From an uncultured delta proteobacterium (GTDB lineage: Bacteria > Desulfobacterota > Desulfovibrionia > Desulfovibrionales > Desulfovibrionaceae), in the NCBI GenBank assembly GCA_903843965.1, contig CAIMRY010000005.1, positions 1-64,000 of the forward strand: a stretch of 64,000 nt of DNA, given 5' to 3'. The notes beneath the pieces are model-generated. The model did no database searches, was not told where the DNA came from, and saw only the letters and a program-made list of their open reading frames with translations. This document shows, in pieces, positions 23,971 through 47,714 of this stretch (position 1 is the stretch's first letter; each line of letters starts with the position of its first letter). The position numbers and the translations under genes were made by a program.

Positions 23971-26900
23971 ATGAAGCTTTCGCGCAGAGGGTTCCTGAAA
24001 CTCTCCGCCGCAGCGGCCTTGAGCACTGCCTTTGGCGGTGTCGGCTTCGCCCTGAAGCCCGCAGCCGTCGACCGCATCGCCATGCTCAAGCCGGACTGGA
24101 GCAAGCAGACCACCACTGCCTGCTGCTACTGCGCAGTCGGTTGCGGACTCATCGTCAACACCGCCCTCACCGGCGCCAAGCGCGCCATCAACATCGAGGG
24201 CGACCCCGACCATCCCATCAACGAGGGCGCCCTGTGCGCCAAGGGCGCGGCCATTTACCAGCTGACCGAGGGCACCCCCGGACAGCCCAACCCGCGCCTG
24301 CAAAAGGTCATGTACCGCAAGCCCTTCGGCACCAAGTGGGAAGCCAAGAGCTGGGACTGGGCGCTCACGCGCATCGCCAAGAACATCAAGCGCGACCGTG
24401 ACGCCACCTTTACGCTGAAAAACGCCAAGGGCGACACCGTGAACCGCTGCGAAGGGCTGGCGAGCGTCGGCTCCGCAGCCATGGACAACGAGGAGTGCTG
24501 GGCCTACCAGGCGTTCCTCCGCTCCCTCGGACTGACCTACATAGAACATCAGGCCCGTATCTGACACAGCGCAACTGTAGCGGCTCTGGCAGAGTCGTTC
24601 GGACGCGGCGCGATGACCAATCACTGGATCGACCTGAAGAACAGTGATTGCATTCTGATCATGGGCAGCAACGCTGCCGAAAACCATCCCATTTCCTTCA
24701 AGTGGGTCACCAGGGCGCAGGAACAGGGCGCCGTGGTCATCCACGTGGACCCCCGCTTCACCAGGACCAGTGCGAAAGCCGACATCTACGCGCCCCTGCG
24801 CTCCGGTTCGGACATCGCGTTTCTGGGCGGCATGATCAACTACATCCTGGAGAACGACCTGATCTTCAAGGAGTATGTGGTCAACTACACCAACGCCTCC
24901 TTCATCGTCGGCGACAAGTACGACTTCAAGGACGGCATGTTCAGCGGCTTCAACGCCGAGACGGGCAAGTACGACAAGTCCGCCTGGGCCTTTGCCCTGG
25001 ACGAGAAGGGCGCGCCCAAACGCGACAACACCCTGGCCGACCCGCGCAGCGTGTACCAGCTGATGAAGAAGCACTACAGCCGCTACAGCCTCAAAAACGC
25101 CGTGGACATGTGCGGCACCCCCGAGGCCAAGCTGCTTGAGGTCTACAAGGCCGTTGCCTCCACGGGCAAGCCGGACAAGGCCGCAACCTCCATGTACGCC
25201 ATGGGCTGGACCCAGCACACCGTGGGCGTGCAGAACATCCGCGCCATGAGCATCATCCAGTCGCTTTTGGGCAACATGGGCGTGGCCGGCGGCGGCATCA
25301 ACGCCCTGCGCGGCGAGTCCAACGTCCAGGGCTCCACGGACCAGGCCCTGCTCTTCCACATCATCCCCGGGTATCTGCCCACGCCCTCGACGGCGGAAAA
25401 ATCCATCGAGGACTATCTGAAGAAGGTCGCTCCGGTGTCCAAGGACCCCAAGAGCATGAACTGGAAGAAGAACCAGCCCAAGTACGCGGTCAGCCTGTTC
25501 AAGAGCTTCTACAAGAACGCCGCACCGGCCCAGGCCTTCGACTGGTTGCCCAAGCTCGACGTGGGCCGGGACTACTCCTGGCTGACCCTGTTCGACCAGA
25601 TGGGCAAGGGCGCCTTCAAGGGCTTCTTCGCCTGGGGCATGAACCCTGCGGTCTCCGGAGCCAACTCCAACAAGACCCGCGAGGCCATGACCAAGCTTGA
25701 CTGGATGGTCAACGTCAACATCTACGACAACGAGACCGGCAGCTTCTGGCAGGGCCCGGGCATGGACCCCAAGAAGATCAAGACCGAGGTCTTCATGCTG
25801 CCTTGCGCAGTGTCCACCGAGAAGGAAGGCTCCATCTCCAACTCCGGCCGCTGGATGCAGTGGCGTTATCAGGGTCCCAAGCCCCTGGGCGACTCCCGCC
25901 CGGACGGCGAGATCATCTACGAGCTGGCCCAGAAGGTGCGCGAGCTGTATAAGAAGCAAGGCGGCGCCTTCCCCGAGCCCGTGCTGAACATGAACTGGGA
26001 GGACATGGGCAACGGACACGAGTTCGACGTCCACAAGACCGCCAAGCTCATCAATGGCTACTACCTGAAGGACGTTTCCGTTAAGCAGCCCGACGGCTCC
26101 ATGAAGGTCTTCAAGGCCGGCACCCAGGTGGCCGCCTTCCCGGCCCTGATGGACGACGGCAGCACCTGCTCCGGCAACTGGATCTACTGCGGCTCGTACG
26201 TCGGCCCGGACCCCAAGGACAACCGCGCGGCCAAGCGCTCCAAGGAGCAGACCCCGGCCCAGGCGGCCATCGGCCTGTTCCCCAACTGGTCCTGGTCCTG
26301 GCCGGTCAACCGCCGCATCATCTACAACCGCGCAAGCACCGACCTGACCGGCAAGCCCTATGCCCCGCAGAAGCCTGTGCTGGCCTGGAACGGCAAGGGC
26401 TGGGACATCGACGTGGTGGACGGCGGCGGCGCCCCCGGAAGCGTGCATCCGTTCATCATGCAGGTGCACGGCATGGCCGCCCTGTTCGGCCCGGGCTTAA
26501 ACGACGGCCCCTTCCCCGAGTACTACGAGCCGCTGGACTGCCCCGTGGCCAGCCATCCGTACTCCAAGGTGCTGCACAACCCCACCGCGCTCAAGTTCAA
26601 GGGCGAGGAGCTGAACGTCTGCGACCCGCGCTACCCGTTCGTCTGCACCACCTACCGCGTCACCGAGCACTGGCAGACGGGCCTGCAGACCCGCCCGCAG
26701 CCCTGGCTGCTTGAAGCCGAGCCGCAGATGTTCTGCGAAATGAGCGAGGAGCTCGCGGCCCTTCGCGGCATCAAGAACGGCGACAAGGTCACGCTGGACA
26801 ACCAGCGCGGCAAGCTCTGGGCCAAGGCCATCGTCACCAAGCGCTTCAAGCCCTTCATCGTGCAGGGCAACGTCGTGCATGAGGTCGGCATCCCCTGGCA

Positions 26901-27030
26901 CTTCGGCTGGCGCTGGCCAGAGGACAAGAGTGGCGGCGATGCGGCCAACCTGCTCTCCCCGTCCGTCGGCGATCCCAATACCGGCATACCCGAGACGAAG
27001 GCCTTCATGGTCAACGTCCGGAAGGCTTAA
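23971..27030 (+). CDS. fdhA: Formate dehydrogenase alpha subunit (selenoprotein, Tat-exported)
   Basis: This 1019-residue catalytic subunit oxidises formate to CO2 at a Mo/W-bis-pyranopterin site in the periplasm. A Tat signal is visible (SRRGFLKLSAAAALS). A [4Fe-4S] site follows with C51, C54, C58 and C89. The active-site selenocysteine is codon 198, an in-frame TGA at 24562-24564 in the context QARI-U-HSATVAALAESFGRG; the same frame continues without break to 27030. A hairpin just after the TGA fits a bacterial SECIS. The start ATG has TGGAGG upstream. A naive gene call would split it into two proteins at the TGA. fdhB follows after 11 bases. Confidence 0.97.
24562..24600 (+). promoter_or_regulatory. 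bSECIS element of fdhA
   Basis: The Sec codon TGA (24562-24564) is followed by a hairpin in which CGGCTCT (24581-24587) pairs with AGAGTCG (24591-24597) around a GGC loop. Position and size fit the SelB-binding bSECIS of formate dehydrogenases. The loop sequence CTCTGG is shared with the second candidate in this window at 46253-46267. Confidence 0.75.
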
Positions 27031-30736: not shown

Positions 30737-30956
30737 GCGGCCGGAGCCTCCCCACCCGATTCAACAGCCGCCTGAAGCCAGCGCTCCGGGCGGCCTGCCC
30801 CTGTCGCCTTGCCCTGTCCCACGGCTATACCCGTACGCCGCCGCCCCCCCCGGGCATGCGGCCAATGCCGTCCGAGTCATTGACGCAGTCCGAGTCCTTG
30901 GCTCCGGCCCGGTCATTGACGCGCCCTGGCCGCCTGGGTACAGTCCGGCCACTTGT

Positions 30957-31110
30957 TCTCAGGGCGGGGTGCAATTCCCCACCGGCGGTATCCTGGGCGC
31001 GCCTTGCGCTTCCGGGGAGCCCGCGAGCGCTTGCTCCATCGGGGAGCGGGGTCAGCAGATTCCGGTGCGATGCCGGAGCCGACGGTGACAGTCCGGATGG
31101 AAGAGAACGA
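30957..31110 (+). promoter_or_regulatory. FMN riboswitch (RFN element)
   Basis: The conserved blocks of the RFN element are all present in order: TCTCAGGGCGGGGTG and AATTCCCCACCGGCGGTA, then AGCCCGCGAGCGC, GGTCAGCAGAT, CCGGTGC...GCCGGAGCCGACGGT and ACAGTCCGGATGGAAGAGA. It lies 134 bases ahead of ribB and would switch ribB off when FMN is plentiful. Complementary stretches AGTCCGC (31134) and GCGGACT (31190) in the gap may be part of the expression platform. Confidence 0.97.
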
Positions 31111-31243
31111 GGCAGCACGGCGACGGGCTTCTTAGTCCGCGCGCGCCATCCGCCTTGCGCGCCCGTTTGACGGGATCGCCTGGCGTCTGGCGGACTGTCT
31201 TGCACGCCCTGATTCTGGTCCCTGGCCTTTAAGGAGGCGCACC

Positions 31244-45485: not shown

Positions 45486-45519
45486 AAAAAAGGCGGCGTC
45501 CTTTGTGTCGGACGCCGCC
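45486..45519 (-). terminator. Terminator of the Cys-type HesB-like gene
   Basis: GGCGGCGTCC/GGACGCCGCC is a perfect 10-bp stem; on the minus strand it is followed by six U (AAAAAA at 45486-45491 on the plus strand). Confidence 0.9.
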
Positions 45520-45553
45520 TGTGCGGCGTTCAGTGAAGGTTCGCCGGAGCGGT

Positions 45554-45913
45554 TCAGGAGCAGCCGCAGCCGCCGGAGCCGCAGCCGCCGGAAGCGCCAG
45601 CGCCGCCGCTGCCGCAGCCGGAGCCGCAGCTGCCGCCGGAGCCGCCGCCCAGTTCGTTCTCGGACTCAACCGAGAAGCCGTACTCGCCCGCGTCGATGAC
45701 GATCTTGCCCGCAGCGGCCAGCAGGGCCTTTTCCGCAAGCAGGGTGTAGCCCAGGGACTCCACGCTCTCGTCGCCGTCGCGCAGCTCGTCCAGGGCCAGG
45801 GAGAGCTTGGGCCCGCAGCACCCGCCCGCCAGGAAGATGCGCAGAGGGGATTTTTCCTTGTCCGCAAAATAGCCGTCGAGCTGGTCGCGAGCGGCTTCGC
45901 TCAGTGTGATCAT
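45554..45913 (-). CDS. HesB/IscA-like protein, cysteine form
   Basis: This 119-aa protein has a HesB/IscA-type fold. The conserved loop reads IFLAGGCCGPKLSLALDE with C32/C33. The C-terminal tail is extended and Gly/Cys/Ser-rich (GSCGSGCGSG ... GCGCS), with many more cysteines than standard IscA. It is paralogous over its whole length to the selenocysteine form encoded just upstream on the same strand (46048-46386). The ATG at 45913 follows AAGGAGCGTCCC. A role in Fe-S or metal handling is inferred from family only. Confidence 0.85.
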   Translation of the reverse strand: MITLSEAARDQLDGYFADKEKSPLRIFLAGGCCGPKLSLALDELRDGDESVESLGYTLLAEKALLAAAGKIVIDAGEYGFSVESENELGGGSGGSCGSGCGSGGAGASGGCGSGGCGCS

Positions 45914-45993: not shown

Positions 45994-46024
45994 AAAAAAA
46001 GGCGGCGCTCCGTGGAACGCCGCC
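45994..46024 (-). terminator. Terminator of the selenoprotein HesB-like gene
   Basis: GGCGGCG (46001-46007) pairs with CGCCGCC (46018-46024); on the minus strand seven U follow (45994-46000). It separates the two paralogues into independent transcripts. Confidence 0.88.
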
Positions 46025-46047
46025 CGTATCGTCGTGGGGATTTTGTC

Positions 46048-46386
46048 TTAGCAGGAACAGCCGCCGGAGGATTTCTCCCCGCTTCCGCAACTGCCTCCGC
46101 ATCCGCCGCCGCCCGTGTTCATTGGGTTTTCCGACTCGACTGAAAAGCCGTAGCTCGTCATGTCGATGCGGATGGCGCCGGTTTGCTCTCCCAGGGCCCG
46201 CTCCACGCAGAAGCTGTAGCCCATCACTTCGTAGGTGTCGTCGTTCTCACGCGGCTCATCCAGAGCCAGCGACAATCTTGGTCCGCTTCAGCCTCCGGAC
46301 GCCATAAAGACGCGAATCGGGGTCTTTTCCTTGTCCGCGAAGTACCCGTCGAGCTGGGTCTTGGCGGCTTCCGTCAGTTCAACCAT
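46048..46386 (-). CDS. HesB-like selenoprotein (in-frame TGA = Sec)
   Basis: Translated with TGA as Sec, this gives a 112-residue HesB/IscA-like protein that starts MVELTEAAKTQLDGYFADKE and continues through VFMASGG-U-SGPRLSLALDE to a Cys-rich end SGGCSC. The TGA (46288-46290, codon 33) stands where the Cys paralogue next door has its conserved cysteine, and the frame is intact on both sides. The ATG at 46386 has AAGGAGG six bases upstream. A SECIS-like hairpin with a bulged U follows the TGA. HesB-like selenoproteins are a described family. Automatic callers would report only a truncated piece starting at 46275 or nothing. Confidence 0.88.
46250..46290 (-). promoter_or_regulatory. bSECIS element of the HesB-like selenoprotein gene
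   Basis: On the minus strand, 20 bases after TGA, GGCUC pairs with GAGCC around the loop UGGAU. Below it CGC pairs with GCG with a single bulged U on the 5' side, as in the E. coli fdhF SECIS. Confidence 0.7.
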
Positions 46387-46461
46387 CACAAGCCTCCTTG
46401 AACGTTGTTGGGAATTGCCTAGATAATGACGGCCCGCAGCTTTGTCAAATGGGCGTGTGGG

Positions 46462-46535
46462 CCCCTGTGCAGGCCGTTGCCCCCTGTGCAGACCATCGAC
46501 CCCTGTGCAGATTGTTGACCCCTGTGCCGCTCTGG
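46462..46535. repeat. Four 19-bp-spaced direct repeats (CCCCTGTGCAG...) upstream of tetR
   Basis: CCCCTGTGC occurs at 46462, 46481, 46500 and 46519, exactly 19 bases apart; the first three continue as AG. The variable half of each unit ends in a TTG or TCGA-like sequence. The array lies 75-150 bases before the TetR gene start, in the promoter region shared with the divergent selenoprotein gene. Confidence 0.9.
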
Positions 46536-46608: not shown

Positions 46609-47178
46609 ATGAGCACCAAGGATCTCATCCTAGCCACCGCCAAAGACATGATCTCCGAGGTGGGCTTCCACAAGATGACCACGGCCAACCTGGCCAAAAG
46701 GGCGGACATCTCCGAGGGCACCATCTACCGCCATTTCGAGAGCAAGGAGGACATCCTCCAGCACATCCTGGACACCTTTGACGAGAAATACCAAACCCTG
46801 TCCGAGAGCTGCCGCGCGCGCATGGACAAGGGCACCCTGACCCTGCAGGACCTGCTGGGCAGCCACTTCACCTTTCTCGACGCCAATGTGGCTGACGTCA
46901 AGATCGTGCTTGGCACCTACAGCATTCTCGACATCACCCACCGCTCCATGGGCCGCTTCATCGACCACATGCGCACCCTGTTCGAGGACTTCCTGGCCCG
47001 CGGGCGCGAGAACGGCACCCTGCTCGAGGTCCCCCTCAAGCCCACGGGAATGATCCTGGCCAACATGTTCTTCGGCCTCATGCGCATCAAGCTCTACTGG
47101 CCGGAGATCGAGGATTTCTCCAAGGAGGCCGTGGAGTTCTCCCGCCGCAGCCTGATGGTTCCAGAGGCCGGAAAATGA
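46609..47178 (+). CDS. TetR/AcrR-family transcriptional regulator
   Basis: This 189-aa protein has the N-terminal TetR helix-turn-helix: ILATAKDMISEVGFHKMTTANLAKRADISEGTIYRHFESKEDIL pattern over residues 7-50. The C-terminal ligand-binding part (about 60-189) is helical with no identifiable ligand. The ATG at 46609 follows GAGG. Its stop overlaps the pyrR start (ATGA), so both are in one transcript. Regular 19-bp repeats upstream might be its own operators. Confidence 0.92.
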   Translation: MSTKDLILATAKDMISEVGFHKMTTANLAKRADISEGTIYRHFESKEDILQHILDTFDEKYQTLSESCRARMDKGTLTLQDLLGSHFTFLDANVADVKIVLGTYSILDITHRSMGRFIDHMRTLFEDFLARGRENGTLLEVPLKPTGMILANMFFGLMRIKLYWPEIEDFSKEAVEFSRRSLMVPEAGK

Positions 47179-47714
47179 GCGACCCGCGCACCATCATGAC
47201 GGCCAAGGAGATGGCCCGCACCTTGGAGCGCCTGGCCTCGGAGGTCATCGAGCGCCGGGGCGAGGACAAGACCCTGGTCCTGGTGGGCATCCAGCGCCGC
47301 GGCGTGGACCTGGCCCGCAGGCTCAAGACGCTCCTGGACGCCCGGCTGCCCGCCCCGACCCTGTTCGGCATGCTCGACATCAACCTGTACCGCGACGACT
47401 GGAGCAACCTCGGCATCGCGCCGACCATCAGCAGCACGGACATCCCGGCCGGCATCGAGGGCGCGACCCTGATCCTGGTGGACGACGTGCTCTACTCCGG
47501 CCGCACCACCCGCGCCGCCCTGGAGGCCATCCTCGACTTCGGCCGTCCCAGACGCGTGGAGCTTCTGGTGCTCATCGACCGCGGCCACCGCGAGCTGCCC
47601 ATCCAGGCCGACTACGTGGGCAAGCGCGTGAACACCGCCAGCCACGAGCGGGTGGACGTGCTGGTGACCGAACGCGACGAGCAGGACCGGGTCCTGCTGC
47701 GCGCCAAGGCCTGA
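47175..47714 (+). CDS. pyrR: Bifunctional pyr operon regulator/uracil phosphoribosyltransferase
   Basis: This 179-aa PyrR-family protein has the PRPP-binding loop LILVDDVLYSGRTTRAAL and other family elements: LVGIQRRGVDLA, LDINLYRDDW and VLIDRGHRELPIQADYVGK. It may act as uracil phosphoribosyltransferase and, in some bacteria, as RNA-binding attenuator; no pyr genes are in the window, so regulation cannot be shown. It overlaps the TetR gene by four bases. Confidence 0.95.
   Translation: MSDPRTIMTAKEMARTLERLASEVIERRGEDKTLVLVGIQRRGVDLARRLKTLLDARLPAPTLFGMLDINLYRDDWSNLGIAPTISSTDIPAGIEGATLILVDDVLYSGRTTRAALEAILDFGRPRRVELLVLIDRGHRELPIQADYVGKRVNTASHERVDVLVTERDEQDRVLLRAKA

Follow-up and report, generated by a model that had tools for sequence, protein, structure and literature searches.

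Selenocysteine (Sec) and cysteine (Cys) forms of one HesB-like protein appear to be encoded in tandem in the DNA considered here, and the question that this locus raises is whether the in-frame TGA of the first gene is decoded as Sec and, if so, how such a pair arose and what it does. Why cells keep Sec where Cys seems to suffice is an old open question, and the occurrence of both forms side by side in many species offers a natural test of selenium use. The window (the whole stretch of 64,000 nucleotides that was analysed) comes from an uncultured member of the Desulfovibrionaceae with a genome of 3.56 Mb, and its relevant features are collected in Table 1. As judged from comparison with related genomes, the best overall explanation is that the reading frame at 46386–46048 on the minus strand belongs to the IscA_HesB_Se family and very probably encodes a functional selenoprotein, with UGA 33 decoded as Sec.

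Table 1. Coordinates of the features of the window discussed in the text
Feature	Position	Strand	Evidence
HesB-like selenoprotein gene (very probable), 112 aa, Sec at residue 33	46048..46386	-	Translation; NF038090, 113.1 bits
In-frame TGA, almost certainly read as selenocysteine	46288..46290	-	Aligned to conserved Cys of A-type-carrier GGCSG
Gly/Ser/Cys-rich tail of Sec protein	46051..46110	-	Translation; pLDDT <50 at residues 92–109
Predicted SECIS hairpin, stem GGCUC/GAGCC, apical loop UGGAU	46253..46267	-	Comparative; UGA-to-loop spacing 25 nt
Ribosome-binding site AAGGAGG	46393..46399	-	AAGGAGGC in 14/14 aligned Humidesulfovibrio loci
Putative sigma-70-like promoter of Sec gene, TTGACA - 16 nt - TTATCT	46421..46448	-	Genus conservation
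Terminator-like hairpin 3' of Sec gene	46000..46025	-	Scan; in 12/14 Humidesulfovibrio loci
Cys paralogue, 119 aa, Cys32, NF038090 member, own stop TGA	45554..45913	-	NF038090, 90.1 bits
Terminator-like hairpin 3' of Cys paralogue	45491..45520	-	Scan
Divergent TetR-type regulator gene	46609..47178	+	PF00440, 59.3 bits
Phosphoribosyltransferase (PyrR-like) gene, most constant neighbour	47175..47714	+	PF00156, 67.2 bits
Sec-type formate dehydrogenase alpha gene (fdhA)	23977-27024	+	In-frame TGA at 24562

Translated, the Sec gene reads through 112 codons to a stop in one frame, its sole in-frame TGA being codon 33, just as the initial annotation had described it, and the ribosome-binding site claimed for it is in place. 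The neighbouring paralogue lies downstream, across a gap of 134 bases; the two proteins share 60% identity across 89 aligned residues. The TGA does stand, as had been proposed, at a conserved Cys of the paralogue, the first of its GGCC. Over residues 1–88, the closest named records found for the Cys protein of the window are from a Humidesulfovibrio MAG (93% identical) and a Deltaproteobacteria MAG (92% identical). Two copies each are carried, among the matches listed, by 14 of the 15 genomes of this genus that were examined, no copy being among those listed for the other (G144, 87% complete), and in the loci read the Sec and Cys genes adjoin in all 14. Each of these 14 genomes keeps the TGA at codon 33, with the frame continuing beyond it, and 35 of the 40 family genera sampled have a Sec copy whose frame is open; homologues thus do not all end at this TGA, and its presence in many separate genomes excludes a sequencing error in practice. 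Alignment of the homologues also makes exchange of Sec and Cys at codon 33 visible. A TGA that is conserved among homologues and aligned with Cys in paralogues is the combination by which a selenoprotein is recognized, and both parts are found here. In 12 Humidesulfovibrio species pN/pS in the Sec gene is 0.18 before the TGA and 0.24 after it.

The initial annotation had drawn a hairpin with a bulged U after the TGA. We compared the 51 bases from the TGA onward in 76 Sec and 62 Cys genes of the Desulfovibrionales. The Sec genes share the consensus NGCUC-UGGA(U/C)-GAGCN, with its stem at positions 24–28 and 34–38 counted from the TGA, and all five stem pairs can form in 75 of the 76, as against one of the 62 Cys genes; when more loci are included the counts become 83/84 Sec genes and 1/75 Cys paralogues. 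RNAalifold, unprompted, found the same 5 bp stem as its consensus fold. In the alignment designated A2, 74 of the 76 Sec stretches were kept, the two that were dropped being identical to kept ones (the window represents locus L011). At the outer pair G-C gives way to U-A in 15 rows and to A-U in two more, 18 cells have changes on both sides, and covariation is 0.178 compared with 0.050 after shuffling (none of 500 shuffles as high) and at most 0.063 when the stem is slid. Cruder measures of covariation are weaker, because just two of the five pairs vary on both sides: the number of further pair types was matched by 42 of 500 shuffles and the count of pairs changed on both sides by seven of 500. 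Selection on the RNA is also suggested at the codon level, since pS of the hairpin codons is 0.057, compared with 0.352 elsewhere downstream and 0.276 in the Cys gene (12 Humidesulfovibrio species), and the Ala codon is GCT in 75/76 Sec genes but in only 9/62 Cys genes. The Sec gene of one locus (L136, genome G011) has a C-G pair in place of U-A, so that the stem is preserved while a conserved Glu becomes Gly (GAG to GGG); there the demands of the RNA seem to override those of the protein.

Bacterial SECIS elements are modelled with a loop of 3–9 nt, a stem of 4–16 bp, a G within the first two loop positions and a distance of 16–37 nt from the UGA (as outlined in PMC13188914), and the 5 bp stem, the UGGAU loop, the position of its G and the 25 nt spacing all fit that outline. 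For this hairpin the comparative test alone is decisive, whereas folding of single sequences is not: the fold of the hairpin region of the window is weak (z −1.63; 13 of 200 shuffles as good), and folding energy alone fails to separate Sec genes (mean −16.96, n=76) from Cys genes (mean −16.03, n=62). The hairpin of the initial annotation is therefore upheld as a conserved 5 bp stem at 46267–46253; a fold with the bulged U is possible for the sequence of the window, but the bulge is absent from the consensus fold, and we reject it as a conserved element.

The genome also contains components of the machinery that Sec insertion requires, a point on which the initial annotation had made its proposal depend. 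selA (567.9 bits) and selB (388.8 bits) were found over their cut-offs by profile search, and tRNA-Sec (82.9 bits) over its own in a search of the genome; among the ORFs of a 3 kb region around the tRNA-Sec gene no sel gene was recognized. A need for Sec decoding in fdhA had been noted, and the genome does have two fdhA genes with one TGA each, one of them that of the window, and a third without TGA. UGA 33 would be decoded by SelA, SelB and tRNA-Sec by way of the hairpin 25 nt downstream, and selection would preserve both this hairpin and the part of the protein encoded beyond the UGA. We regard it as almost certain, from the alignments and the hairpin taken together, that codon 33 specifies Sec. 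That the TGA is instead a true stop, in a pseudogene or in a pair of short genes of which the second is translated by re-initiation past the TGA, is highly improbable: the standard code does yield only an ORF of 75 aa in this region, from TTG 46275 (46275–46048), and the adjoining Cys paralogue ends in TGA, so that TGA is a stop by default in this organism, but conservation of the frame extends to either side of codon 33, the hairpin is kept in nearly every Sec gene, and the Sec machinery is present. Reading as Trp or by near-cognate readthrough is less probable again and can be set aside, since the open frame alone speaks for it, whereas paralogues have Cys at the site (62/62, which is how that class was defined, as well as the paralogue in the window), the adjoining gene stops at TGA, and selA, selB and tRNA-Sec are all there.

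A search for selA in 19 genomes of the family detected it in 12. It is present in all six with a read Sec copy (G011, G017, G020, G038, G040 and G087). The seven genomes with a single copy of Cys type are divided, selA being missing in four (G006, G008, G035 and G049, the last 74% complete) and present in three (G026, G042 and G111), which indicates that loss of the Sec form is possible even where Sec is decoded. In the remaining six, where copies were partly read, selA occurs in G001, G034 and G162 and is missing in G206, G210 and G214. The presence of selA fits that of the Sec copy as a trend.

Each gene of the pair was said to have its own terminator, and a terminator-like hairpin does follow each. 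The scan is by itself weak evidence, as it gave three hairpins of this kind where 1.5 would be expected for the region, but 31 of 42 tandem Sec/Cys gaps contain one, against 0.6 expected from simple shuffles, which supports the claim. Upstream of the Sec gene, TTGACAAA is found in 14/14 Humidesulfovibrio loci and TTATCT in 12, the other two having TTATTT; this conservation suggests that the element acts as the promoter of the Sec gene, and it is not among the sites listed by a consensus promoter scan of the region. In the divergent intergenic region, 46462–46527 comprises three 28-nt copies with a period of 19 nt (CCCCTGTGCAG...); these repeats are absent from the 13 other aligned Humidesulfovibrio loci and are apparently species-specific.

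Both proteins of the window exceed the cut-off of 85 bits for NF038090 (IscA_HesB_Se), and all 64 members of the alignment designated A3 match this profile at E 0.001 or better. The name and description of NF038090 are silent on tandem Sec/Cys pairs, and the variable Cys-rich tails of the window proteins lie mostly outside its 101 positions. TIGR01911 (HesB_rel_seleno), the model through which reviews describe HesB-like selenoproteins, likewise represents HesB-like proteins with Sec for Cys; the window proteins fall under its cut-off of 66.35, with 26.7 bits for the Sec protein (E 6e-6) and 22.7 for the Cys protein. The Sec protein is also below the cut-offs for A-type carriers (TIGR00049, 38.3 against 58.8 bits; PF01521, 24.1 against 26.3), and the Cys protein scores below it for both. 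Even so, the Sec protein is predicted to have the HesB/IscA fold: its model (mean pLDDT 83.1) superimposes on IscA (1x0g) with Z 11.6 and an rmsd of 2.5 over 93 aligned residues. In the alignment Sec stands at the Cys position of the GGCSG motif of A-type carriers, and this cysteine and two tail cysteines are the cluster ligands of those proteins (as described in PMC7144353). Compared with canonical IscA, ErpA and SufA, then, the protein shares the fold and the position of the first ligand, and differs in its scores, in having Sec for Cys and in its variable tail. Both window proteins end in Gly/Ser/Cys-rich tails by translation; that of the Sec protein ends in CSC in the window, varies in relatives and is of low confidence in the model. 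A PF01521 search of the organism's own genome returned nothing, neither of the two HesB-like genes included, and is consequently uninformative on other A-type carriers; TIGR00049, the profile of which detects the Sec gene, was used instead. None of 59 genomes of the family, some of them incomplete, yielded a match above the TIGR00049 cut-off, as against eight of 14 control genomes that did, and the HesB-like proteins are thus the only A-type-carrier-like ones that this search detected in the family.

That HesB-like selenoproteins exist was known, as the initial annotation acknowledged. They form the sixth family in a 2016 table, with 90 members in 86 organisms (PMC5029168), D. vulgaris and D. 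desulfuricans are listed as having them (PMC1794560), and DVU_1382 of Desulfovibrio vulgaris is given as a HesB-family gene with TGA (table of PMC1914089; PMC1794560, Table 3). By its published description DVU_1382 resembles the Sec gene of the window in bacterial family, HesB family and in-frame TGA, and differs in that the descriptions in those two papers mention no tandem Cys partner. In the openly licensed literature, supplements aside, we found no description of tandem Sec/Cys HesB pairs, which is weak evidence of absence. The protein family is therefore already known; tandem Sec/Cys pairs recur among the relatives of this organism in the Desulfovibrionaceae.

The initial annotation had singled out the tandem pair with Cys-rich tails as the unusual point, and the pair is real; a peculiarity of the window species it is not, and we reject that view because the pair occurs across the Desulfovibrionaceae. 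In 43 loci from 35 genera of the family, fetched around known matches, 19 of the genera have Sec and Cys copies no more than 1 kb apart on the same strand. Among 40 family genera the fetched loci show a Sec copy in at least 35, a Cys copy in at least 27 and both in at least 22, these being lower bounds as copies elsewhere, for example the second copies of G007, G013, G014 and G031, were partly unfetched. At least three Cys occur in the tails of 83/84 Sec and 75/75 Cys proteins, the number of tail Cys being 2–5 and 3–6, respectively. Since the tandem pair and the Cys-rich tails are so widespread, they constitute a family trait. The PyrR-like phosphoribosyltransferase gene is divergent to the HesB genes in 32 of the 43 loci (28 genera). 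The labels PyrR, YkgJ, LivF/LivJ, HslU and HypB used for neighbours are what we take their sequences to represent; a Pfam check confirms neighbours of the TetR, phosphoribosyltransferase, shikimate kinase, FeoA, FeoB, L-PSP (RidA) and HypA (PF01155) types, and the YkgJ-labelled protein has no Pfam match. A degenerate extra HesB-like copy with neither Sec nor Cys at the key site is present in the same array in four loci (L115, L139, L121 and L123, of genera g26, g5, g38 and g39). One genome (G001, genus g2) has nine HesB-like matches, an expansion of which one of the nine was read, and in L082 (G256) a neighbouring copy of 42 bits also has TGA at the key site and was excluded from the counts.

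What might the second copy be for? The Cys copy, which lacks the hairpin, would on our reading be a selenium-independent, somewhat diverged partner. It is possible, if doubtful, that it is more specifically a backup isozyme that is expressed under selenium shortage, on the pattern known from Methanococcus. In M. maripaludis, too, Sec and Cys isogenes occur in one genome, and the Cys isogenes are repressed at adequate selenium; those isogenes are under the selenium-dependent repressor HrsM (as described in PMC11097638), and the forms of the present locus are in tandem. The shared family, motif and tail of the two proteins would suit such a role. Set against it are the faster evolution of the Cys copy (downstream pN 0.174, compared with 0.078 in the Sec copy, in 12 Humidesulfovibrio species), the six single-match genomes that have the Sec copy only (G011, G017, G019, G020, G033 and G037), and the finding that inspection by eye revealed no conserved promoter or operator before the Cys gene.

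The history of the pair bears on the same point. From 150 distinct matches a tree of 138 proteins (76 Sec and 62 Cys; 87 columns, the Sec column masked) was built, 12 matches under 90 bits being left out, namely the TGA-bearing copy of L082 and 11 copies that have neither residue at the site. At least 25 changes between Sec and Cys are required on this tree, 15 of them forced by starred branches, and in six genomes (G059, G126, G010, G015, G032 and G023) the genome's own Sec and Cys copies are starred sisters. A division into one Sec clade and one Cys clade is rejected: for a single Cys clade the AU test, with a quick tree search, gave a delta lnL of 347 and p = 1.5e-49 (84 rows, 34 Cys and 50 Sec, of family f1 only with five Humidesulfovibrio loci; six rows had been dropped, four as long-branched and two as near-identical). 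Pairs have therefore either arisen repeatedly or been homogenized. We prefer repeated duplication with a Sec-to-Cys change, at a conserved locus and from a Sec ancestor, so that pairs would have formed several times in the family by local duplication followed by the change. The Cys gene of G010 (L103) retains a full fossil hairpin, which points to a Sec-to-Cys change there. Two Sec-to-Cys events in HesB-like proteins are tabulated by Zhang et al. (2006; PMC1794560, Table 1); in the present data several apparently separate events are available for comparison.

A rather unlikely alternative is that the sister pairs reflect gene conversion of an ancient tandem pair at a conserved locus, from which selection would have protected the hairpin and the site of the Sec/Cys difference. 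It would explain why pairs cluster by genome in the six starred cases although the locus is conserved across genera, why in g40 the identity within a genome's own pair (0.82 in G126, 0.80 in G087) equals or exceeds that between species (0.50–0.80), and why in g11 and g22 the Cys copies are no closer to one another than to Sec copies. On the other hand, the copies cluster by type in g29, g41 and g26, gene order differs among genera, and the sister pair of G015 is unlinked, its members lying ~68 kb apart. Within Humidesulfovibrio the Sec and Cys copies form separate clades (support 99/95 and 99/94), and codon identity between them at same-residue sites is alike within and between species (0.521 and 0.510; n=12 of the 14 species, the proteins of G083 and G029 being identical to those of L001 and L002), by which we reject ongoing conversion in that genus. 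Returning to repeated duplication, we offer as a tentative account of the whole that a Sec-HesB gene at a conserved locus repeatedly yielded a Cys twin in tandem and, in some lineages, a third copy that has neither residue; that the Sec copy changes slowly and keeps its SECIS element while the Cys copy loses it and diverges; and that the pair replaces A-type carriers in the Desulfovibrionaceae.

As to the activity of the Sec protein, an A-type-carrier-like Fe or Fe-S protein with Sec as first ligand has a little less than an even chance of being right. Sec33 would replace the first cluster-binding cysteine and, together with cysteines of the flexible tail, might hold Fe or an Fe-S cluster, which the protein could hand on as IscA and ErpA do. 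The pair hints at a possible part for a selenium ligand in the iron-sulfur traffic of those sulfate reducers for which the search gave no canonical A-type carrier. Against a carrier role, the canonical C-terminal CxC is replaced by the variable, poorly modelled tail, and an M. maripaludis mutant in the HesB-like selenoprotein is reported, as an unpublished observation of the authors, to be unimpaired in nitrogen fixation (PMC11097638). Alternatively, Sec and the Cys-rich tail might bind a soft metal or metalloid (mercury, arsenic or nickel) or serve redox chemistry rather than Fe-S traffic. The number of tail Cys would suit this, and for certain other Sec proteins metal binding has been proposed in a review (PMC13188914). 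However, the fold and the Sec position match the ligand site of IscA, and neither a UxxC nor a CxxU motif is present in the Sec protein of the window. In four loci, from three genera, the HesB genes are followed downstream by genes for HypA and HypB, ~100–200 bases away in L116 and L119 and ~1 kb away in L132 and L133. HypA and HypB act in nickel insertion during hydrogenase maturation, and the closeness of their genes in two of these loci would favour a soft metal; the linkage is nevertheless rare (4/43 loci), and we consider this alternative unlikely, favouring the carrier-like role over it. Elsewhere in the window, an FMN riboswitch is recognized at 30951–31112 on the plus strand (99.5 bits).
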